From: an uncultured Verrucomicrobiota bacterium
GTDB lineage: Bacteria > Verrucomicrobiota > Kiritimatiellia > CAJWTS01
Length of the DNA stretch: 64,000 nt
Reading direction: 5' to 3'
Assembly (NCBI GenBank): GCA_913047795.1
Contig: CAJWTS010000005.1
Coordinates: 1-64,000, forward strand
Under the pieces are notes generated by a model. It did not search any database. It saw nothing but the letters and a program-made list of their open reading frames with translations, and was not told the DNA's origin. Within the stretch, counting starts at the first letter, position 1. Every line of letters begins with the position of its first letter. A program made the position numbers and the translations under genes. Shown one piece after another: positions 45,161-61,006 of this stretch.

Positions 45161-45311
45161 CAATATGGGGGCAACGCGCAATGGATCATACACGTTCGCG
45201 ACGTCTATGTCCTGCCGGACAGGTTGCCGCGCAGGCCCCGCCCCACATTGCGTCGATGCGTTCGAGCGGACTTGAATCCTGCACGATTTGTCCCCTATCC
45301 TTGAAATCTTG

Positions 45312-46325
45312 ATGCAACAAGTCCATATCGCACGCGCGCCCGTCCGCGTCGACCCGGCCGGCGGTGGCACGGACGCACCGCCCTTCTGCACCGACTACGG
45401 CGGGAGGGTTGTGAATTTCGGCGTCGCGCTCTACATCCACGCCCGACTTGCGATCCGGAACGACGACCCGACGGTCACGATCACAAGCCGTGATCTGGGT
45501 GTGACTATCGAGTCCCCCAACGTCCAGGCACTCGAAATTAACGGTGAGCTGGATCTGCTCAAAGGGATTGCTCGGCGCATGGACCCCCCGTGGGGATTTC
45601 ACCTGACGGTCGAGTCCGACGTGCCACCCGGAAGCGGACTTGGATCATCCGGGGCGGCCAGTGTCGCCTGCGTGGGCGCGTTCGATCAGGCATCCGGCAT
45701 CGACCGCAGCCAGGTTGAGGCCGCCGAGCTGGCCAACGCCGTGGAGCGTGAGGACCTCGGCATGCCGGGCGGCAGCCAGGACAGCTACGGGGCGGCGCTT
45801 GGCGGCATGAACCTGATTACCTACCATCGGGACGGCAAGACAACGGCCCATTCACTCGCCGTGCCCGATGCGATGCGGCATGAGCTCAATCGGCGAAGCG
45901 TGCTGGTGTATACGGGCGAAGTCCATCTCTCGGGCAGTATTCACCACGACATCAAAGAGAGTTACGCCCTGGCCGACAGTCCGACGGTGGACGCGATGAA
46001 GCATCTTGCGCGTGTCGCAGCATCCGCCGCGGAAGCACTTGAAGCCGGCGAGACCGATCGATTCGGTGCCTGCCTTGCGGAGAACTGGGTTCATCATAAG
46101 CGCCTGCACCCCAGCTGCACGAGCGCCCGGCTTGAGGCGTTCTACGACGCGGCGCGTGCCTTCGTCGTGGGCGGAAAAACATGCGGTGCCGGAGGGGGCG
46201 GCTGCATCCTGTTTCTGGCCCGAGAGGGCCAACGACACGATCTGCGCGAGACCTGTATCGGCCTGGGGGGGGTTCCCTACCCCTTTCAGATTGCGCCGGA
46301 AGGGCTTGTTCGGTGGTCGGTATAG
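45312..46325 (+). CDS. GHMP-family sugar kinase (HddA-like)
   Basis: 337 residues from ATG 45312. GHMP kinase motifs: ARAPVRVDPAGGGTDAPPF at the N-terminus, PPGSGLGSSGAASV as the phosphate loop and KTCGAGGGGCILFLA near the C-terminus. The GGGTD opening is typical of heptose-7-phosphate and fucose kinases rather than galactokinase or mevalonate kinase. It may serve surface-sugar activation with the divergent glycosyltransferase. Exact substrate unknown. Confidence 0.82.
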   Translation: MQQVHIARAPVRVDPAGGGTDAPPFCTDYGGRVVNFGVALYIHARLAIRNDDPTVTITSRDLGVTIESPNVQALEINGELDLLKGIARRMDPPWGFHLTVESDVPPGSGLGSSGAASVACVGAFDQASGIDRSQVEAAELANAVEREDLGMPGGSQDSYGAALGGMNLITYHRDGKTTAHSLAVPDAMRHELNRRSVLVYTGEVHLSGSIHHDIKESYALADSPTVDAMKHLARVAASAAEALEAGETDRFGACLAENWVHHKRLHPSCTSARLEAFYDAARAFVVGGKTCGAGGGGCILFLAREGQRHDLRETCIGLGGVPYPFQIAPEGLVRWSV

Positions 46326-46662: not shown

Positions 46663-47148
46663 GTGGAAAGCAGTCGCACAATACATTTCCGTCGTGGCTT
46701 CACGGTATTGGAGATCATGATTGCAGTGGGCATCATCGGCCTGCTCGCATTGATCGCAATTCCGGCCTTTATGAAGGCACGGCAAAGAACCCAGGTGACG
46801 CAGATAGCCAGCAATTTGCGCGTGTTTAGCCATGCGTTCCAGCAGTACGCAATCGAGAACGGAGACTACCCGCCGGATTCACACCTGCCCGCCCCGTACC
46901 ATCTGCCGAACACCCTGATAGAGGAGTATATCAATGCGCCGCTCTGGGCGGCAACGACATCCCTCGGCGGCAACTACAACTGGGAGGGGCTCGACAGCTA
47001 TCCGTATGCCGGCATTTCGATCTTTGCGGCTACTGCGCCAGTTGCACGTTTCCAGGAGCTGGACGAGATGCTGGATGACGGCGTTCTGTCCGAGGGCCAA
47101 TTCCGCCAGACACCGAACGGTCGCTACACGTTTATCGTCGAGGAATAA
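46663..47148 (+). CDS. Type II secretion/type IV pseudopilin-like protein
   Basis: 161 residues from a GTG start preceded by AAAAGG. The N-terminus has a prepilin cleavage and methylation site, RRG followed by FTVLEIMIAVGIIGLLALIAIP, with Glu at +5 and the hydrophobic helix of class III prepilins. The globular part (about 50-161) is rich in Tyr, Pro and Asn, as in many pseudopilins of PVC bacteria. It stands alone, far from the secretin operon at 1.7-7.8 kb, and converges with a Ser/Thr kinase gene 15 bp away. Confidence 0.85.
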   Translation: MESSRTIHFRRGFTVLEIMIAVGIIGLLALIAIPAFMKARQRTQVTQIASNLRVFSHAFQQYAIENGDYPPDSHLPAPYHLPNTLIEEYINAPLWAATTSLGGNYNWEGLDSYPYAGISIFAATAPVARFQELDEMLDDGVLSEGQFRQTPNGRYTFIVEE

Positions 47149-47163
47149 CTCCGGGCACGTCGC

Positions 47164-48375
47164 CTACAGCAGCGTAACGCGCTGCGTCTTGGGGTCGACC
47201 AGTGACGACAGGTATTCTGATAGATCGCGAGCCAGCTGTGTATCTGCGCCGGACTGGACCATCTGGTGATCGATCACAACCAATCCGTCGTCGCCCGATT
47301 CTGCTTCCTTTGCGTCACGGAAACGCTTCTGGGGATCGGGATCGATCAGGCGCTGGATGATTCGAACCAACGGTTCGTTGCGGCGCACGTCGTCCGGCAG
47401 TAGGCTATCGAGTCGAGCCGGTAACTCCATCTTCACACCCAGCAGGCGAGCCTCATCGATAACGCTGACATCCAGCATTGGTTTACCCCGTAACAACTCC
47501 AGGCCCAGAAGACCCACGCTGTAGAGGTCGGTCGCGATCGATCCCGTGCGGCGCTCATGTGTCTCGGGCGCCATATACAGTGGCGACCCCAGAAGGAAGG
47601 ACACTTCTTCGCCGACCATTACCGCTCGTCCGAAGTCAACGACTTTAACGGTGCCCAAGCGGTCAATCATGATGTTGCCGGGCTTCACGTCATAGTGCAG
47701 GAAATTCATTTCGTGCAGCCGTTCGAGGCCGCGCAGGACGCGGCGCAGCACGTAGACCACAACCTCCGGCCGCAGCCGGGCGGGGCTGTCCGGATCGAAT
47801 ACAAACAGCCGCCCACACAATCGCCCCCAGTCGTCCGGCCCCGTCCGTTGCTTTGCCACTTGCAAGTTTTCGGGATTAAGCAATCGCGTCAAATCAAGTC
47901 CGTCGATCGCGTCCATCTGGACGTATCCGATGCCGTAAGTCTCTTCGTAGGAGTGACGCGATACGAGATTCGGGCTCTGTAAGACCTGCAGCTGCGTCAA
48001 TTGCGATGCGATGCGGCCCATGTCCCGCCAGTATTCCTGCGGCGAGCGATAAAGCTCCGGATCCATCACCTTGATGGCGTGACGCGTTATGCACCCGCGT
48101 GCGCCCTGACGCAGGCCCAGGAAAACGACGCCCTGACGTCCGCGGCCAAGCTCCTCCAGCAACTGGTATGCGACCGGGTAATGAATGCCACGCGCATCTA
48201 GAATCGCGCGGTAGTGCCGCCGCAACTCGTCCATGGCAACCGCCGTCTGGTCGGGCACCGGCGCCGGATCCTCGCCCTGCGGCATCACCAGCGTCGAGGC
48301 GACAGATACCGGCCGTTTCAGAGCGCCTACAGTCGTCGATCCATCGGCCGCGATCAGTTTTTTGTCGGTAGTCAT
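47164..48375 (-). CDS. Eukaryotic-like Ser/Thr protein kinase
   Basis: 403 residues, no membrane segment. Kinase subdomains: ELGRGRQGVVF (P-loop, about residue 75), AIKVMD (ATP lysine), FLHYDVKPGNIMI (catalytic loop), VKVVDFGRAV (metal Asp in DFG) and YMAPETHE. The catalytic Asp is kept but the preceding Arg is Tyr, so activation-loop phosphorylation may not be needed. N-terminal 65 residues are low in structure with several Thr, possible autophosphorylation sites. It could phosphorylate proteins read by FHA domains such as the regulator at 21201. Confidence 0.88.
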   Translation of the reverse strand: MTTDKKLIAADGSTTVGALKRPVSVASTLVMPQGEDPAPVPDQTAVAMDELRRHYRAILDARGIHYPVAYQLLEELGRGRQGVVFLGLRQGARGCITRHAIKVMDPELYRSPQEYWRDMGRIASQLTQLQVLQSPNLVSRHSYEETYGIGYVQMDAIDGLDLTRLLNPENLQVAKQRTGPDDWGRLCGRLFVFDPDSPARLRPEVVVYVLRRVLRGLERLHEMNFLHYDVKPGNIMIDRLGTVKVVDFGRAVMVGEEVSFLLGSPLYMAPETHERRTGSIATDLYSVGLLGLELLRGKPMLDVSVIDEARLLGVKMELPARLDSLLPDDVRRNEPLVRIIQRLIDPDPQKRFRDAKEAESGDDGLVVIDHQMVQSGADTQLARDLSEYLSSLVDPKTQRVTLL

Positions 48376-48511: not shown

Positions 48512-48552
48512 GATCATTGATCGTTATGATTAGATTCGATCATGTTCGATCA
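48512..48552 (+). promoter_or_regulatory. Possible DeoR-type operator at the regulator start
   Basis: A perfect 11-bp palindrome GATCATTGATC (48512-48522) is followed by two direct copies of TTCGATCA at 48535 and 48545, 10 bp apart. TGATCG (48518) and CGATCA (48537) also form an inverted pair. The sites overlap the start codon at 48542, as expected for autoregulation. Confidence 0.35.
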
Positions 48553-49297
48553 GGAGCGGCAACATAGTATATGCACCCTCATCGCCCGAAACGGGCGGCA
48601 AACTGTGCGTGAACTGCAGTCTGCGCTAGGCGCTTCTCCGGCCACTATTCGGCGTGACCTCACCCATCTTGACCGTATCGGTCGTATTATTCGCGTACAC
48701 GGGGGGGCGATCGATCCAGGGCAATTTGGAGGGGAAAAGACCTTCGACGATCGCGGTCGTCGAGAGCGTAGATCGAAAGCTGCGATCGCTGACAGCGCTG
48801 TCGATATTGCACGGGGCTACGGCGTCGTATATGTCGACGCGGGCACGACCTGCCTCCCGATTGGCCGTCGATTGTTGGGTGTCGCCGATCTCACGATTTA
48901 TACGAATTCGATCCCGCTCGCCGCGACACCGGGTACCGCGGCGGAAGTCGTCTGTATCGGCGGCACGGTCAAGCACGTCAGCAGCGCACTTGTCGACGGC
49001 CTCGCACTGGGATGGATCCGACGTCTGCGGTTTCCGCTCGCATTCATCGGAGCATCGGGCCTGTCTGCGACTGACGGTGCGTCAGCGAGTGCGACCGACG
49101 AAGCAGCACTCAAACAGCTCGTTATCGAACGCTCCGAACGGTCCGTGCTCGTCGCGGACAGCACCAAGTGGGATCGCGCGGCCGATGTCGTCTTTGCCGA
49201 CTGGCCCGTCATCAACGACTGGATCTGCGACGACCGCCTCGCGCCGCGCGCCGCGAAGGCGGTTCGCGATCACGGCGTCAACGTGATCCTAGCCTGA
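48542..49297 (+). CDS. DeoR-family transcription regulator
   Basis: 251 residues. N-terminal DeoR helix-turn-helix (about 5-57): RQTVRELQSALGASPATIRRDLTHLDRIGRI-type sequence ending IRVHGGA. The C-terminal sugar-phosphate-sensing domain (about 75-235) has VYVDAGTTCLPI, IYTNSIP, VVCIGGTV, FIGASGLS and VLVADSTKWD. DeoR proteins usually repress the operon they precede until a phosphorylated ligand binds. It lies 72 bp upstream of the corrinoid methyl-transfer genes on the same strand and is the best candidate regulator for them. Confidence 0.9.
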   Translation: MFDQERQHSICTLIARNGRQTVRELQSALGASPATIRRDLTHLDRIGRIIRVHGGAIDPGQFGGEKTFDDRGRRERRSKAAIADSAVDIARGYGVVYVDAGTTCLPIGRRLLGVADLTIYTNSIPLAATPGTAAEVVCIGGTVKHVSSALVDGLALGWIRRLRFPLAFIGASGLSATDGASASATDEAALKQLVIERSERSVLVADSTKWDRAADVVFADWPVINDWICDDRLAPRAAKAVRDHGVNVILA

Positions 49298-49369: not shown

Positions 49370-51304
49370 GTGCCCCAGACACCAAAACAGTTGATGCATG
49401 AAGCCATGTCCATGGGACAGCCCTCGCGCGTTCCAACCATGTGTCAACTCGCGATCGGCCACGTGATGCTCAACACGGATATTCATCCGATCGACTATTT
49501 TCTCTCGAGCGATGCCTACGCCGAGGGCTTGCTGCGTATGCGCGAAGCCTACGACTTCGACGGTATCCTGCTACACAAGCCCGGACGCGAGCCGGAATTC
49601 GGCGGATTGATCGACTCGATCGACCGCGATCTGGATGAGCCGACAATCTACTTGAAAGACGGTACGCGCATCGAGTGCATGCGAAATGACGATCCGTACT
49701 ACCGCGATGACGGCCGCTATACTCGCCCGGCCGTGCCCGATCTGGACCCGGCCAATCCCTTCTCCTGGGCCGCGGAGTCCTTCATGCATTGGAGTATCCA
49801 CAAAGGTTCTACGAACTGGCGTCAACCTGATGCGTTTCCCGATTACTGGTTCGACGCGATCGACGCGGTACGGAAGGCCCTCGGGGACGCGTATTCGATA
49901 CACGGCGAAGTGCGTGCGCCCATCGATCATTTCTTCATGGCGGCCGGAATCGAGGAAGGCGCCCAGGCGTTCATTCTCCATCGCGACCATACGCACCGCC
50001 TGATGGATGCATTCGCAGACATTACAGCCGCGTGGGCGGTTGCTCAGGTGCATCGCGGATGCGACGCCATCAAGATTTCTTCGCCCTTCGCCGGCGCTGC
50101 TTTCCTGTCCCCCGAGATGTACGCGGAATGGGTGGTACCCTACGAGGGACGTGTCGCGAGCGCCGTACGAGCAGCCGGTGCATTTGTGTACACGCATACC
50201 TGCGGCGCGATCGGCGACCGGCTCGATCTCATGACCCGCTCGGGCCTGAGCGGGGTCGAGACGCTGGACCCGCCGCCGCTTGGAACGGTTGAACTGGACG
50301 AAGCGAAGGACTTGCTGCGGGATCGCCTTTTCATCAAGGGTAATATCGACCCGGTCAACGGGCTGCTGCGTAACGACCTGGCAACCGCGCGCAGGGTCGT
50401 CGAAGACGTTTACGCGGTCGGCTGCCGTGGCGGGCAATACATCCTCAGCACGGCCTGCAGTGTCGCACCCCCTACACCGCCGGAGAATATCCGGCTCCTG
50501 GCTGAATGTGTCCGCCGGCATGCCGGCACGAAGAGTCCATGGACGCCCGCCAACCTTCCCCGTAAGGCGCCCGCGAATGCGTTACCTGTACCGTCCGCTG
50601 CTGCGACAGACGACGCCACCGGCGTAGACGATTTCGCGACAGACGGCCGGACCGACTACGCCCTGATGAACCAGATCCTCTACGAAGGTAACGCCGCGAA
50701 GGTGAAGGAAATGACGGAGCGCGCTTTGACCGAAGGCCTTCCGCCGCGCACGATCCTGGCCAATGGGCTGATTGCCGGCATGAGCGTCGTCGGCGAAGAC
50801 TTTAAGCAACGCCGGCTCTTTCTACCCCAGGTGCTGATCGCCGCCAAGGCGATGAAGGCCGGCATGGCCATCCTGCAGCCCTTGCTGACCGACCAGGATG
50901 GCCAGAACTCGCACAGCGGCACGCTGCTGATGGGAACGGTTAAGGGAGATCTACACGATATCGGTAAGAATATCGTATGCATGATGGCCGAGGGCGCCGG
51001 ATTCAATGTCATCAACATCGGGGTGGACCAAAACGTTGACGCCTTTATCCAGGCCGCCCGGGAGCACAAGGCCGACATCGTAGGCATGAGTGCACTATTG
51101 ACCACAACCATGGTGTATATGAAAACGGTGATCGACGCGTTCCACGAGGCAGGAATGGACGACGTCTGTTTCGTATGTGTCGGCGGCGCGCCGGTAACCG
51201 AAATGTTCGGTGACGAAGTTGGGGCCGATGGCTACGCGGACGATGCCCCGAGTGCCGTTGAATTGTTTCGAACGCTGATGGAGAAAAAATGCCGGTTACC
51301 TTGA
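49370..51304 (+). CDS. Fused UroD-type methyltransferase and corrinoid-binding protein
   Basis: 644 residues from a GTG. Residues about 1-385 are a uroporphyrinogen-decarboxylase-fold methyltransferase (MtaA/CmuA type) with HTCGAIGDRL, a His-x-Cys zinc site, and GNIDPVNGLL. Residues about 420-500 are a helical B12-binding cap (GNAAKVKEMTERAL, LIAGMSVVGEDFK). Residues about 515-640 are the cobalamin domain with DLHDIGKNIV, where His is the lower cobalt ligand, and GMSALLTTTM. CmuA shares this fusion, but other families use it too; the methyl donor is unknown. It overlaps the RACo gene by 16 bp. Confidence 0.88.
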   Translation: MPQTPKQLMHEAMSMGQPSRVPTMCQLAIGHVMLNTDIHPIDYFLSSDAYAEGLLRMREAYDFDGILLHKPGREPEFGGLIDSIDRDLDEPTIYLKDGTRIECMRNDDPYYRDDGRYTRPAVPDLDPANPFSWAAESFMHWSIHKGSTNWRQPDAFPDYWFDAIDAVRKALGDAYSIHGEVRAPIDHFFMAAGIEEGAQAFILHRDHTHRLMDAFADITAAWAVAQVHRGCDAIKISSPFAGAAFLSPEMYAEWVVPYEGRVASAVRAAGAFVYTHTCGAIGDRLDLMTRSGLSGVETLDPPPLGTVELDEAKDLLRDRLFIKGNIDPVNGLLRNDLATARRVVEDVYAVGCRGGQYILSTACSVAPPTPPENIRLLAECVRRHAGTKSPWTPANLPRKAPANALPVPSAAATDDATGVDDFATDGRTDYALMNQILYEGNAAKVKEMTERALTEGLPPRTILANGLIAGMSVVGEDFKQRRLFLPQVLIAAKAMKAGMAILQPLLTDQDGQNSHSGTLLMGTVKGDLHDIGKNIVCMMAEGAGFNVINIGVDQNVDAFIQAAREHKADIVGMSALLTTTMVYMKTVIDAFHEAGMDDVCFVCVGGAPVTEMFGDEVGADGYADDAPSAVELFRTLMEKKCRLP

Positions 51305-52929
51305 CAATCGATTCCAGAGAGATCGCGGCGGTGCCGGAGAAGTCGATCTTCGATCACGCCGAGCAGCTTGACGTTCGCGTTCCGACCTCATGCTTCAAGC
51401 AGGGGAAATGTCGTGAATGCCTCGTCGAAATTCTCGAAGGCATGGATTTGCTAACGCCGCCCAGCGACGAGGAGGCCCATCTCGAAGAAAACTTTCGCCT
51501 GTCCTGCCGTACGCACGTTGCCGCGACGGAGGGCCGTGTCCGCTGCCATACGCTGCGCCGCGCCCCGTTACGAATCCAGGAAGGTGGTCTCGACGTCGCG
51601 GGCGACCTTGAAATCGATCCGGCCGTGACCCGCGACGGTGATCGTGTCCTTTTGGACGGAGTCGAAATCGCACAATCGCCCGGACCGCTGCTCGGCCTGG
51701 CCGTGGATATCGGGACGACAACGGTTGTCATGCGTCTTGTCGACCTGGAAACGGGTAACGTGCTGGCCGTGCAGTCGTTCGAGAATCCTCAACGATTCGG
51801 CGGATCCGACATTATGGCACGCATCAAGTACGACGGCGACCACAAAGGACGCCTGTTGCGGCGCACCTTGCTTGGATACCTGAACCACGCCATCGAGGAC
51901 CTTCCCTGTGATCCGACGACGATCTACGAAATGGTGGTCGTGGGCAACTCGACGATGCGCGACATCTTCTTCGGCCTGGACGTACAATCGATCGGTCAGA
52001 AACCGTATCGGTCCCTTACAGAGCACGACTTCCGCGAAGGCAAAGTCGACACAACGCAACTGTGCCGACCAGCGCGCACGTTTCGATTTCCGATTCATCC
52101 CGAGGCACGGGTTGTCGGCCTGCCCCTCGTTTCGGGACATGTGGGCGCGGATACCGCAGCCTGCATGTTGGCTATCGGCATCGAAAACGAGAACCGAACC
52201 TTCGCCCTGATGGACATTGGAACAAACACGGAACTACTGCTGGGCAACGGCGAACGCGTGATGGCGGCGTCCTGTCCGGCGGGACCGGCCTTCGAAGGCG
52301 GAAAACTCTCCTGTGGCATGCCCGGACTCGATGGCGCAATCGAGCGTGTCGGCCTGGACGACACCGGGCGGCCGGACCTGACCGTCATCGGAGATCAGCC
52401 ACCCGTGGGTATCTGCGGGTCCGGCTTGATCGACCTCGTCAGCGAATTGCTGCGTATCGGCCGGCTCGATACAATGGGCCGGTTTACCGCTGAAGACGAG
52501 ACCGTGTTCACGCTCGACCCGACGCAGAACGTTTACCTGACGGAGCCGGACATCGGAGAACTAGCCCAGGCAAAGGCCGCCAACGCATCGGGACTGCACA
52601 TTGTCTTTGAACATTACGGCATCGCCTTCGAAGAGGTGGACGTCTTCTATCTCGCCGGCGGATTCGCGCGCCATATCGATGTAGAAGCAGCCAAACGGAT
52701 CGGATTAGTGCCGGACATCCCTTCCGCAAAAATCGTTCAGATCGGAAACGCGGCGATCCTCGGCGCGACCCGCGCCCTCGTCTCGATGCGAGAGCGCGAG
52801 TCGCTCGAGAAAATCGTGCGGCGCATAGAACATGTCGAGTTGGAGCAGAACCCACATTTCTTCGACTACTTCGTGGAGGGATGCCAGTTTGTTCGCATCC
52901 AGCGATTGGATCCCGAAGCATTTATCTAG
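51289..52929 (+). CDS. Reductive activator of corrinoid proteins (RACo-like), ferredoxin-ASKHA fusion
   Basis: 546 residues. Residues about 1-85 form a [2Fe-2S] ferredoxin domain with CFKQGKCRECLVEI and a later SCR cysteine. The rest is an ASKHA ATPase: DIGTTTVVMRLVDL, VVGNSTMRDIFFG, LMDIGTNTELLLG, GICGSGLIDLVSE and YLAGGFARHID. RACo uses ATP to reduce inactive Co(II) corrinoid to Co(I), restarting the methyl carrier encoded just upstream. The overlap with that gene fits a stoichiometric partnership. Confidence 0.93.
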   Translation: MPVTLTIDSREIAAVPEKSIFDHAEQLDVRVPTSCFKQGKCRECLVEILEGMDLLTPPSDEEAHLEENFRLSCRTHVAATEGRVRCHTLRRAPLRIQEGGLDVAGDLEIDPAVTRDGDRVLLDGVEIAQSPGPLLGLAVDIGTTTVVMRLVDLETGNVLAVQSFENPQRFGGSDIMARIKYDGDHKGRLLRRTLLGYLNHAIEDLPCDPTTIYEMVVVGNSTMRDIFFGLDVQSIGQKPYRSLTEHDFREGKVDTTQLCRPARTFRFPIHPEARVVGLPLVSGHVGADTAACMLAIGIENENRTFALMDIGTNTELLLGNGERVMAASCPAGPAFEGGKLSCGMPGLDGAIERVGLDDTGRPDLTVIGDQPPVGICGSGLIDLVSELLRIGRLDTMGRFTAEDETVFTLDPTQNVYLTEPDIGELAQAKAANASGLHIVFEHYGIAFEEVDVFYLAGGFARHIDVEAAKRIGLVPDIPSAKIVQIGNAAILGATRALVSMRERESLEKIVRRIEHVELEQNPHFFDYFVEGCQFVRIQRLDPEAFI

Positions 52930-52933
52930 ACCG

Positions 52934-53386
52934 ATGCCTGCCTGCTACGCATTTCGAGATCGTGCCTTGCGCCGCTGGTCGTCCGACCATCTCCGGCTCG
53001 AGGATATGGGTGACACACGCCTGCTCGCCGTATTCGATTACCGGGGTTCATCGTGCAGCAACGATGCTTTCGACATGATTTTCGAGGTTACGCTGGAATC
53101 TGTTAACGGGCGGCGGCGCATCGTATCGAGCCGCTTACGTCTTCACCGGGAGACCGCAGCGCTGGACACGATGTGTGCGTTCGGCCAGGCGGGCAGTCTG
53201 TTCAAGGCGGAAATCGACAGCTGCCGTCCGCTTGAAGGCAGATGGCTGGAAGACGCGCTCGAATGGGAAGCGGAGGTGGAACCCGCAGGCTGTCTTTGCG
53301 AGCCGACGTACCGTAATCACAAATGGCGAATCGTGCTACAAACGATCCATTATAGACTGGAGAATCCCCACGATGACACTGCTTGA
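52934..53386 (+). CDS. Conserved-looking 150-residue protein of the methyl-transfer operon
   Basis: The ATG at 52934 lies 4 bp after the RACo stop, and the 3' end overlaps the next gene by 14 bp, so it belongs to the operon. No signal peptide or membrane segment. It is soluble and beta-rich, with paired-looking features: FDYRGSSCSNDAF near residue 33 and PAGCLCEPTYRNHKWRIVLQT near the end. The four Cys and the HKW segment could bind metal or contact an electron donor. I recall similar unnamed proteins beside corrinoid methyltransferases but know no function. Confidence 0.7.
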   Translation: MPACYAFRDRALRRWSSDHLRLEDMGDTRLLAVFDYRGSSCSNDAFDMIFEVTLESVNGRRRIVSSRLRLHRETAALDTMCAFGQAGSLFKAEIDSCRPLEGRWLEDALEWEAEVEPAGCLCEPTYRNHKWRIVLQTIHYRLENPHDDTA

Positions 53387-54272
53387 ACAACTCGCACAGA
53401 AGACGCTGGTCGGTGATGGGGCCATGGGAAGCCAACTTCAAAACGCGGGGCTCGAACCGGGCGGCTGCGGCGAAGCCTGGAACATCGAACATCCCGATCG
53501 TGTGCTCGCCATTCAGCGCGGGTACGTCGCGGCGGGATCCGATTGTCTGACCACGAACACGTTCGGCGGCTGCCGCGTCATGCTTGAACGCCACGCGCTG
53601 GGCCATGAAGTTGCGGCCATCAACCGGGCGGCGGTCGAGATTGCGCGCGAAGCCTTCGGTGACCGCCCCGGCTTCGTGATCGGCGACATCGGGCCCTTCG
53701 GCGGGCTGATGGAACCCTACGGCGAGGTCCCCGCGGCGGACGTCCGCGACGCATTTGGTGAACAAGCACGCGCCCTGGTGGACGCGGGGGCCGATGCGAT
53801 CATTATCGAGACGCAGACCGCGTTCGAGGAATTGAAACTCGGCATCGACGCGGCCCGCGAGGCCGGTGCCACTTGCGTTATTGGGTCCATGGCCTACGAC
53901 GTGGGCCAGGATGAGAGCCAGATCTTCACCATGATGGGCATTCATCCGCAGATGGCCGCGGAGTTCTTGAGCGAAAACGGCGCGGACATCGTCGCGCTGA
54001 ATTGCGGAACGGGCATGGACATGCGGTATGCCGAGCATGCCGTGCGTGTGTACCGCGAAACGTGCAATCTGCCGCTCATGGCTCAGCCTAACGCCGGCCT
54101 TCCAGAGCTCATCAAAATGAAGGTGCATTACGGCGAGAGCCCGGAACAGATGGCGGCCGGCGTTCCCGGATTGCTCGCAGCCGGGGCGAACATTGTTGGC
54201 GCGTGTTGCGGCAGCACGGCCGATCATATCCGCTTGATTCGAACAGCCGTCGATCAACACGCTGAAACGTAA
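53373..54272 (+). CDS. Homocysteine S-methyltransferase domain protein
   Basis: 299 residues from ATG 53373. A (beta/alpha)8 homocysteine-binding barrel like the first module of cobalamin-dependent methionine synthase: LVGDGAMGSQLQNAGL, TNTFGGCRVML, GPFGGLMEPYG and AGADAIIIETQT. The zinc ligands are the Cys in ALNCGTG and the Cys pair in GACCGST. It has no folate, B12 or activation module of its own, so it probably takes the methyl group from the separate corrinoid protein of this operon to make methionine. Confidence 0.9.
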   Translation: MTLLEQLAQKTLVGDGAMGSQLQNAGLEPGGCGEAWNIEHPDRVLAIQRGYVAAGSDCLTTNTFGGCRVMLERHALGHEVAAINRAAVEIAREAFGDRPGFVIGDIGPFGGLMEPYGEVPAADVRDAFGEQARALVDAGADAIIIETQTAFEELKLGIDAAREAGATCVIGSMAYDVGQDESQIFTMMGIHPQMAAEFLSENGADIVALNCGTGMDMRYAEHAVRVYRETCNLPLMAQPNAGLPELIKMKVHYGESPEQMAAGVPGLLAAGANIVGACCGSTADHIRLIRTAVDQHAET

Positions 54273-54286
54273 ACGCCCCGGACATC

Positions 54287-54622
54287 ATGCGACATAAATT
54301 AGCCACCGCGAACACTTCCGCCGAGCAACTCCTGCCCCCGATACAGTCGGACGGCTCCGGCATCGGCGTGAACTATGTGGAAGAATATGTCGCGGCGTTC
54401 AACGCGACGCTGGAAGACGGCCGCCGCGTATCGTGCACGCGCAAGGGCCTCAAAATTACGCTCACCGTTGGCGATCAACGCGGCCACGGGCTCATGCGAC
54501 GCCTCGCGAACGGCCCCGACCCAAAGCAGATCCTGCGCCTGGCACTCGACGAAAGCGCAGGGGCCATCGGCTGCCGAATCATCATCGACGACGGGGTGAT
54601 CTATCTCGAAGAGTCGTCCTGA
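54287..54622 (+). CDS. Hypothetical 111-residue protein ending the methyl-transfer operon
   Basis: Starts 14 bp after the homocysteine methyltransferase gene. Soluble, no signal. The middle reads VEEYVAAFNATLEDGRRVSC, RKGLKITLTVGDQRGHGLMRR, then a helix and IGCRIIIDDGVIYLEESS, suggesting a small alpha/beta fold. The two Cys residues are far apart in sequence. No recognised family; an accessory role in the same pathway is inferred from position only. Confidence 0.6.
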   Translation: MRHKLATANTSAEQLLPPIQSDGSGIGVNYVEEYVAAFNATLEDGRRVSCTRKGLKITLTVGDQRGHGLMRRLANGPDPKQILRLALDESAGAIGCRIIIDDGVIYLEESS

Positions 54623-58564: not shown

Positions 58565-59521
58565 TCATGTGCCGATCGGATGCCAGGTTGTTTTGACTTC
58601 CTGTGTTTCTAGAATCTCGTAAGGCCCTTGGGCAGTCTCGGATGACCAGTCCGACCCGCCGCGTAGAATCGCGCGCTTGACGTTACCGGCCGCGCAGGCT
58701 TGAAGATCACGAATATCGCTCGCGGCGTCCCCGCAATACACCACGGCATTGACGTCCATGTGGCCCGCCAGGTGCGGCAGCAACTCGCCGGCCGGAGCTG
58801 TCAGAACATTTACCACTCCGCCAGGGACGTCCGATGCGTGTAGGACTTCGGCAAATGTAACCGCACAGAGGGGTCGTTCCGCGGCCGCAATGACCAGTGC
58901 CGTGTTGCCACCCACAATCGCGGGCACCAAGCTGGAGACAAGCCCCAGTAACGCACTGTCTTCGGGAGCCACAATGCCGACGACACCCGTCGGCTCGTAA
59001 ATCGAGAAATTGAAATGGGCGCTTGCGACGGGATTAACGCTACTGAAGACCTGCTGGTACTTATCCGCCCAACCGGCGTAGTAAACACAGCGATCAATCG
59101 CCAGTTCAACTTCGTTGATGGACGCCTGGCGCGTATGACCTATCCACTGAAGCTCATCGGCAAACTGCGGCTTCCGGCCTTCCAGCATCTCCGCAACGCG
59201 ATAGAGTATCTGGCCTCGATTGAATGCCGTCGCGGCGGCCCAGGCCGGTTGCGCCGCGCGCGCAGCCTGTACGGCATCGCGCAAATCCTTCTTCGTACAG
59301 CGACATACATTCGCCAACGTCGTTCCTTCGGAGGATTTCAACTCGTAGTAATGGCCCGACTCTGTTCGAGGGAATTTCCCGCCGATGTAGATCTTGTACG
59401 TCTTGTTTACGGGCAGGCGTCGGCGCCCGTTGCCTCGATCGGCGGATGGCGACGCTACGGACCGTCTCCTGGTCGTCCTCATCCGCGATGACTTCGCCCG
59501 TGGTTGACGTGATTTGGCCAT
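58565..59521 (-). CDS. Half-length aldehyde dehydrogenase paralogue without catalytic Cys
   Basis: 318 residues. After a basic N-terminal extension of about 40 residues it follows the cofactor-binding half of aldehyde dehydrogenases: YKIYIGGKFPRTESG, AFNRGQILYRVAEMLEGR, YYAGWADKYQQVF, GVVGIVAPEDSALLGLVSSL and GGVVNVLTAP. It stops before the catalytic half, so it has neither the catalytic Cys nor the ELGGK glutamate. It sits directly after a full-length paralogue in a deoC operon, an arrangement I recall from other bacteria, so it is probably a structural or regulatory partner rather than a chance truncation. Confidence 0.82.
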   Translation of the reverse strand: MAKSRQPRAKSSRMRTTRRRSVASPSADRGNGRRRLPVNKTYKIYIGGKFPRTESGHYYELKSSEGTTLANVCRCTKKDLRDAVQAARAAQPAWAAATAFNRGQILYRVAEMLEGRKPQFADELQWIGHTRQASINEVELAIDRCVYYAGWADKYQQVFSSVNPVASAHFNFSIYEPTGVVGIVAPEDSALLGLVSSLVPAIVGGNTALVIAAAERPLCAVTFAEVLHASDVPGGVVNVLTAPAGELLPHLAGHMDVNAVVYCGDAASDIRDLQACAAGNVKRAILRGGSDWSSETAQGPYEILETQEVKTTWHPIGT

Positions 59522-59545
59522 GATGATTTCTCTACGTATCTCTTA

Positions 59546-61006
59546 TCAATTCAGGCTCAGGTACGGTAGCAATCCGTGCATGCCGCCTTCCCGGCCCAAG
59601 CCGCTTTCCTTGTAACCGCCGAACGGCGATCCCGGATCAAACTTGTTGAATGTATTCGCCCAGATCACGCCCGCACGCAACCGGGACGTCATCTCGAATA
59701 TCTTGGCCCCCTTGTCCGTCCACACGCCGCCGGACAATCCGAAGGGCGTGTTGTTCGCCTTCTCGATGGCCTCTTCCGCCGTCCGGAAGGTCTGAATGGT
59801 AAGTACGGGTCCGAATATTTCTTCCTGTACGATGCGGTGTGACTGCGATGCATGGTCGAAGAGTGTCGGGCGGCACCAGAACCCCTTCTCGGGCAACGTG
59901 CAGGCGGGTTGGTACATGTCGGCCCCTTCCTCACGGCCAAGCTTCAGGTAGTACTCGATCTTCTTGAGTTGCATGCGCGAATTGATCGCACCGACATCGG
60001 TATTTTTGTCAAGCGGATCGCCTACGATCAGCGTCTCCATGCGATCCTTGAGCTTCTGCACCAGCGACGTTGCGATCGACTCCTGCACCAGGAGGCGGGA
60101 CCCCGCGCAACAGACATGCCCCTGGTTGAAAAAGATCGCGTTGATAATTCCCTCGACTGCCTGGTCGATCGGCGCATCCTCAAAAACAATGTTGGCTGCC
60201 TTGCCCCCCAGTTCGAGCGTGAATTTCTTGCCCGTACCGGCCAGGTCGGACTGAATTTTCTTGCCCACGGCGGTCGACCCCGTAAACGCAATTTTGTTGA
60301 TACCGGGATGATTAACCAATGCGGCACCGGTCTCCCCCGCACCCGTAACGATGTTCACAACACCGGGCGGAAGATCCGCCTCCGCGATGACCTCGGCCAG
60401 TTTGAGGGCCGTCAAGGGCGTGGTCTCGGCCGGTTTCAGCACAACGGTGTTGCCGGTCGCCAGGGCAGGCGCGATCTTCCAGGCTGCCATCAAGAGCGGA
60501 AAATTCCAGGGGATCACCTGCCCGGCGACACCAAGGGCCCGGGGCGACTTTCCGGGGAATGCGTAATCGAGCTTGTCAGCCCAACCGGCGTAGTAGAAAA
60601 AATGTGCCGCCGCTAACGGAACATCAACGTCGCGAGACTCGCGGATCGGCTTGCCGCCGTCCATCGATTCAATCACCGCAAACTCTCGCGAACGCTCCTG
60701 GACAATACGTGCGATCCGGAAAATATACTTTCCACGTTCGGACGGTTTCATCTTTGACCAGACCGTGTCGTAAGCCCGGCGGGCCGCCTTGACCGCGCGA
60801 TCTACGTCGTCTGGTCCCGCATCGGCAACATCTGCCAATTTCTTCTCTGTGGAAGGACTGATCGTACGGAAATATTTTCCGCTCTTCGGTTCGGTGAATC
60901 GCCCGTTAATGAACAAGCCATACCTTTTCTCCAACTTCACATTGGCGGTTCCCTCGGGCGCCGGTGCGTAGGTCCAGTCCGTATCAAATGTCAGTTTGCT
61001 CGCCAT
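59546..61006 (-). CDS. NAD(P)-dependent aldehyde dehydrogenase
   Basis: 486 residues, full length. Motifs: VIPWNFPLLMAAWKIAPAL for cofactor binding, GSTAVGKKIQ, the general-base Glu in LELGGKAANIVFEDA and the nucleophile in NQGHVCCAGSRL. C-terminal PFGGYKESGLGREGG is standard. Because deoC ends 5 bp upstream, the likely substrate is acetaldehyde released by the aldolase, oxidised to acetate. The half-length paralogue follows 24 bp downstream. Confidence 0.93.
   Translation of the reverse strand: MASKLTFDTDWTYAPAPEGTANVKLEKRYGLFINGRFTEPKSGKYFRTISPSTEKKLADVADAGPDDVDRAVKAARRAYDTVWSKMKPSERGKYIFRIARIVQERSREFAVIESMDGGKPIRESRDVDVPLAAAHFFYYAGWADKLDYAFPGKSPRALGVAGQVIPWNFPLLMAAWKIAPALATGNTVVLKPAETTPLTALKLAEVIAEADLPPGVVNIVTGAGETGAALVNHPGINKIAFTGSTAVGKKIQSDLAGTGKKFTLELGGKAANIVFEDAPIDQAVEGIINAIFFNQGHVCCAGSRLLVQESIATSLVQKLKDRMETLIVGDPLDKNTDVGAINSRMQLKKIEYYLKLGREEGADMYQPACTLPEKGFWCRPTLFDHASQSHRIVQEEIFGPVLTIQTFRTAEEAIEKANNTPFGLSGGVWTDKGAKIFEMTSRLRAGVIWANTFNKFDPGSPFGGYKESGLGREGGMHGLLPYLSLN

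Follow-up and report, generated by a model that had tools for sequence, protein, structure and literature searches.

The window studied here is a stretch of 64,000 nucleotides (positions 1 to 64,000 of contig CAJWTS010000005.1, assembly GCA_913047795.1; part of contig C5 in our numbering) from an uncultured Verrucomicrobiota bacterium of the Kiritimatiellia, whose genome assembly comprises 3.5 Mb in 132 contigs and is 93.5% complete. Between positions 49370 and 54622 it carries five genes, all on the + strand, forming one compact operon that encodes, in this order, a UroD-type methyltransferase fused to a corrinoid domain, the reductive activator RACo, a small protein sm1, a homocysteine S-methyltransferase (HMT) and a second small protein, sm2. 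Adjacent frames overlap by 16 and 14 bp or are separated by gaps of 4 and 14 bp. An initial annotation, made from the sequence alone, had described these five linked genes as a pathway from a methyl donor to methionine. All five are present, and the fusion, the ATP-driven activator, the HMT barrel with its zinc cysteines and the two small proteins of that description were each recovered.

The fusion (49370..51304, 644 aa) combines in one frame a UroD-type zinc methyltransferase (about residues 1-385, PF01208) and a corrinoid-binding region (about residues 433-640), where the Pfam search detected both B12-binding domains (PF02607, PF02310). Its corrinoid motif, DLHDIGK, lies at residue 527 with the His intact. 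The second gene (51289..52929) encodes a RACo-type ATP-dependent corrinoid reductive activator with an N-terminal 2Fe-2S domain: Fer2 and the middle and C-terminal ASKHA domains (PF17651; PF14574, E 8e-71) all score above cut-off, the cluster ligands Cys35, Cys41, Cys44 and Cys73 are present and invariant in the five cassettes compared, and the closest solved structure is 3zyy. The HMT (53373..54272) is an S-methyl_trans barrel (PF02574, 198 bits, E 4e-58) carrying the three zinc ligands Cys211, Cys278 and Cys279. Its closest solved structure is the N-terminal half of Thermotoga maritima MetH (1q7m), and it is 58-68% identical to the HMTs of related cassettes.

Neither sm1 (52934..53386, 150 aa) nor sm2 (54287..54622, 111 aa in a family of about 110 aa) matches any Pfam or NCBIfam model. 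Both are real genes, since other genomes have homologues at the corresponding place in the operon. Seventeen sequences were aligned for each: in sm1, four Cys (a GCxC among them) and an HKW motif are invariant in 17/17, whereas sm2 serves as a marker of the cassette, with constant neighbours wherever its surroundings were read. In most relatives sm1 is the C-terminal half of a larger protein, whose N-terminal half is missed by a Pfam search and resembles the activation domain of MetH (98.8% in hhalign, E 8.6e-17, against Met_synt_B12-type activation proteins); the window encodes the sm1 half alone. Confident AF2 models of sm1 and sm2 (pLDDT 83 and 87) gave no fold match in the PDB at E <= 0.001. 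An Rfam scan of the window and seven related loci matched no riboswitch or other element, and a promoter and terminator scan gave no count clearly exceeding that of shuffled controls.

A probable receiver cassette with exchangeable donor enzymes

Two peptide patterns served to collect the related loci, and one of them spans His276 and Cys278 of the window UroD. Neighbour counts cover 80 related UroD loci, 23 from close and 57 from distant relatives. As the initial annotation had proposed to check, the gene set was looked for elsewhere; it recurs in identical order across several phyla, and hence not by chance, with the corrinoid protein encoded apart from UroD. Its stable part is RACo - activation/sm1 - HMT - sm2, which was found with three types of donor enzyme: the window UroD type, a second type called here UroD2, and an MttB-family protein.

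With the window type, six loci of Planctomycetota and Verrucomicrobiota (L049, L051, L053, L054, L059, L061) show RACo - activation/sm1 - HMT - sm2 - UroD as far as their contig limits allow, and in L049, L054 and L059 a corrinoid gene lies upstream. In genome G108 the order is corrinoid - RACo - activation/sm1 - sm2, the HMT adjoins on the opposite strand and UroD is on a separate contig. UroD2 occupies the donor position on plasmid 1 of Gemmatirosa kalamazoonensis (L162:2817-9324), where UroD2 - corrinoid - RACo - activation/sm1 - HMT - sm2 is colinear with the window, and also in a likely Opitutaceae group (L128-L132). At the aligned zinc site UroD2 has H-N-D and GGG, against H-x-C and C in the window enzyme. 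Some cassettes of the L128-L132 group add genes for MetF-like, pterin methyltransferase and amidohydrolase proteins. Amidohydrolase-family genes were also seen in the cassette locus L049 (4349-5620), in L128 (15236-16561) and near cmuA on pCMU01 (L121:4668-5900), possibly by coincidence.

The third arrangement, MttB-family - corrinoid - RACo - activation/sm1 - HMT - sm2, was found in five Verrucomicrobiales genomes (L154-L158, for example L155:653-14382). The donor enzyme there is a non-pyrrolysine frame (PF06253, 310 bits), and where the contig allows, the cassette is followed by genes for ETF beta, ETF alpha, an FAD oxidoreductase and a dimethylglycine-dehydrogenase-like protein. Judged from these genes, the locus is probably an operon for methyl transfer from glycine betaine to methionine and for dimethylglycine oxidation. 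The same five genomes also carry corrinoid - UroD - GHMP kinase at another site.

Mainly because the donor enzyme varies while RACo, sm1, HMT and sm2 stay, UroD would stand on the donor side and homocysteine would be the methyl acceptor, as the initial annotation had predicted. The cassette itself appears to be donor-neutral and coupled to other methyltransferases in other bacteria, and sm1 and sm2 would belong to its receiving and reactivating part rather than to the donor enzyme. In 14 of the 80 loci an HMT gene is found no more than 6 kb from UroD (P ~2e-14, given our rough estimate of 0.9% per locus); among these 14 are the distant loci L079, L085, L109 and L120, which retain just UroD, B12 and HMT genes. 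We found no description of this cassette in the open-access literature, to which the search was confined, subscription journals lying outside it.

Zinc site, sugar kinase and the methyl donor

The zinc ligands of the window UroD are His276, Cys278 and Cys363, which form the H-x-C ... C motif of thiol-type MtaA/CmuA enzymes. His276 and Cys278 are conserved in 82/82 homologues, partly by selection because they lie inside a search pattern, and Cys363, outside the patterns, in 80/80 readable ones. In a phylogeny, which the initial annotation had suggested and which took in part of MtaA only and few characterised enzymes, the window UroD falls in a clade of 82 sequences (support 0.87) that includes neither CmuA nor the MtaA fragment, UroD2 or HemE. 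The MtaA/CmuA family model TIGR01463 aligns with residues 162-383 only, at 96.3 bits, and its curated cut-off of 235.4 is not reached.

His-Cys-Cys sites have been reported for UroD methyltransferases acting on sulfur or selenium, and carboxylates for those acting on oxygen (Kountz and Balskus, PMC10418091). Methoxylated compounds and methylamines, two of the donors initially listed, are disfavoured because of this zinc site, whereas methyl halides, also on that list, are retained. A methyl group bound to sulfur, selenium or a halide is thus the more likely substrate.

The neighbours of UroD give a further hint. Of the 23 close relatives, 16 have a GHMP sugar-kinase gene directly 3' of UroD; none of the 57 distant ones does. 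This places the kinase on the donor side of this UroD subclade. The window homologue is HddA-like (45288..46325, + strand, PF00288/PF08544, ATG start probably at 45312) and lies 3 kb upstream of the operon, with two genes between: a prepilin-type N-methylation-motif protein (+) and a Ser/Thr protein kinase (-), at 46663-48375. Its closest solved structure is the heptose 1-phosphate kinase 3k85, and it scores 178 bits against the HddA equivalog NF049969 (D-glycero-D-manno-heptose 7-phosphate kinase), below the cut-off of 600. A DeoR-family regulator, likely local, is indeed encoded about 70 bp upstream of the operon (48542..49297, + strand, PF08220 and PF00455). As a pointer to a sugar signal, which the initial annotation had seen in it, it is weak evidence because it is not conserved: no DeoR gene was found near UroD in the 80 related loci. 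The recurrent sugar kinase is a better hint to the donor, still an indirect one, and an S-methyl sugar would be our guess. That UroD and the GHMP kinase form a new pathway, in which a methylthio-sugar or a thioether from S-adenosylmethionine turnover is demethylated, the methyl alone passing by way of corrinoid and homocysteine to methionine and the sugar going to the kinase, is compatible with these data but unlikely. Genes of the MtnA-type isomerase and of the PNP/MTA-phosphorylase type are present in 23/23 genomes tested, so this co-occurrence is non-discriminating and a new methylthioribose kinase is not needed; 5-methylthioadenosine salvage as the purpose of the GHMP kinase is neither supported nor excluded.

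The surroundings of more distant UroDs vary: HMT and corrinoid genes accompany some of them, and NamZ, SIS, PIG-L or sugar-transporter genes lie near others. Such is the case in four loci of Anaerolineae and KSB1 (L086, L089, L105, L106), where distant UroD members stand beside NamZ, SIS, PIG-L and sugar ABC-transporter genes and no corrinoid gene was detected near UroD. The host itself has a second UroD and corrinoid pair (C17:24396-26164; L033:8256-10174) with an H-x-C...C zinc motif, which groups with MtaA; the surrounding 18 kb showed neither an HMT nor a RACo of the cassette type. Elsewhere in the window, two adjacent aldehyde dehydrogenase genes at 58565-61006 encode proteins of 486 aa (full length) and 318 aa (matching the family profile over its first half only).

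Proposed pathway and alternative explanations

From the gene content, domain make-up, key residues and conserved gene order described above, we infer that the operon encodes a donor-specific, corrinoid-mediated pathway forming methionine, with a probability of about 0.72. The His-Cys-Cys zinc of UroD would bind a methylated donor with a soft leaving atom, most likely sulfur, possibly selenium or a halide, and UroD would pass the methyl group to the corrinoid domain fused to it, at Co(I). By family and gene order, the HMT, holding homocysteine on its Cys3 zinc, would then take the methyl group to yield methionine and Co(I). Co(I) oxidised to Co(II) would be re-reduced by RACo, as expected for its family, using ATP and the 2Fe-2S cluster, and sm1 and sm2 may assist in this reactivation or in docking. 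In both Phaeobacter and Desulfovibrio, RamA/DUF4445 proteins are known to return B12 to its active state for methionine synthesis (PMC5764234).

Several observations weigh against this pathway or narrow it. CmuA, the chloromethane enzyme, likewise shows H-C-C in the alignment, so that the motif is no proof of sulfur. The MetF-like and pterin methyltransferase genes of some cassettes make a folate-linked role possible in relatives; the claim that folate is avoided holds at the window locus but does not extend to those clusters. The activation-like domain is absent from the window and was not found elsewhere in the host genome, in a search run without positive control. Finally, the host carries a full-length MetH (contig C27) as well as MetF (contig C15), and the cassette's methionine is therefore not strictly needed. 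A C-terminal piece of a second MetH, with corrinoid and activation domains, runs into a contig end (C48:27598-28971). We rejected for this host the idea that the cassette stands in for an absent methionine synthase; in a few relatives (for example genomes G301 and G305) full-length MetH was not detected. Of the self-contained route initially claimed, the path from donor to corrinoid to homocysteine, with RACo, is well supported by comparative genomics, but it would not be the host's only route to methionine. A complete metH together with transfer to folate or coenzyme M had been named as what would refute it: the metH is there, but such a transfer is not indicated, since the operon has an HMT and the host's pterin-domain proteins are MetH and a FolP-like protein only. 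The window UroD subfamily occurs in 4/288 genomes sampled from the host's class (E <= 1e-60), and this rarity suggests that it arrived there by horizontal transfer.

Flow in the opposite sense, in which methionine methylates the corrinoid through the HMT and UroD then methylates a thiol, would suit two zinc enzymes of a kind that handles thiols, and methyl transfer involving corrinoids can run either way. Methyl transfer from methyl-cobalamin to homocysteine, however, runs downhill, and the Verrucomicrobiales cassette with its MttB-family and dimethylglycine-oxidising genes implies passage from donor to homocysteine; we regard reverse flow as highly improbable. An O-methylated sugar, a methoxylated aromatic or a methylamine as donor would agree with the DeoR gene, with the sugar-kinase homologue adjoining UroD in relatives and with the carbohydrate genes beside more distant ones. 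It is nevertheless improbable, given His-Cys-Cys ligands in place of the carboxylates of O-type UroD enzymes (PMC10418091), and given that amine demethylation is the work of other families, among them the MttB family that relatives use with the same cassette.

Two further explanations are improbable to about the same degree. The cassette could be a non-canonical split methionine synthase that a pterin methyltransferase, its gene lying elsewhere, supplies mainly with the methyl group of methyl-tetrahydrofolate, UroD being accessory. One likely Opitutaceae genome does group MetF-like, pterin methyltransferase, B12, HMT, RACo and sm2 genes, and split MetH is known with a RamA-like protein in Phaeobacter (PMC5764234) and, in Ruegeria, also serves glycine-betaine demethylation (PMC12478193). 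But within 6 kb of UroD the 80 loci have no pterin gene of that type, UroD and the corrinoid domain form one protein in the window, and the complete MetH leaves a FolP-like protein as the only other pterin-domain protein of the host. Salvage of methyl-selenium or methyl-sulfide compounds, akin to the type I mlp clusters of anaerobes, would also combine UroD, a corrinoid protein and a reductive activator with H-C-C zinc sites, and the authors of PMC10418091 proposed that the methyl group passes on to a thiol and ends up in methionine; yet the operon has a single UroD, against two or three Mlps in type I clusters, and HMT is not listed among the core mlp genes in the results of that study.

The donor-specific pathway to methionine would include a conserved receiver that turns methyl-corrinoid into methionine and to which a one-gene swap would connect other methyl donors. 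This receiver cassette occurs in uncultured bacteria of several phyla and at least one named isolate, and the complete version in Gemmatirosa kalamazoonensis makes the mechanism testable. The locus also defines a UroD methyltransferase subfamily and two conserved families, sm1 and sm2, which are predicted to act in the reactivation of B12.

Comparison with known systems

The split MetH/MtgBCDE systems of Phaeobacter inhibens and Ruegeria pomeroyi likewise have a separate HMT, a corrinoid protein and a RamA/RACo-type activator, and there the corrinoid protein serves both donor demethylation and methionine synthesis (PMC5764234, PMC12478193). Their second small reactivation-linked protein is DUF1638, whereas the window counterparts sm1 and sm2, with no Pfam match, are not; the window operon also lacks a pterin protein and has its donor UroD fused to the corrinoid domain. 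This fusion, N-terminal UroD and C-terminal corrinoid domain, is shared with CmuA together with the H-C-C motif, but CmuA falls outside the 82-member clade, and the five genes displayed next to cmuA on pCMU01 include none with an HMT annotation. The soluble coenzyme M methyltransferases MtaA/MtbA and the type I Mlps (PMC10418091) share the UroD fold, the H-C-C ligands, a corrinoid partner and a reductive activator; they differ in that the acceptor gene of the window is an HMT, and a type I mlp cluster needs at least Mlp2 and Mlp3 with the corrinoid protein and activator, against one UroD here. With MetH and separate activation proteins such as TM0268/TM0269 of T. maritima, the operon shares an HMT barrel closest to T. 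maritima MetH, and the activation-like domain of its relatives, missing in the window, resembles Met_synt_B12-type proteins; unlike MetH, the operon has no folate domain and includes RACo.

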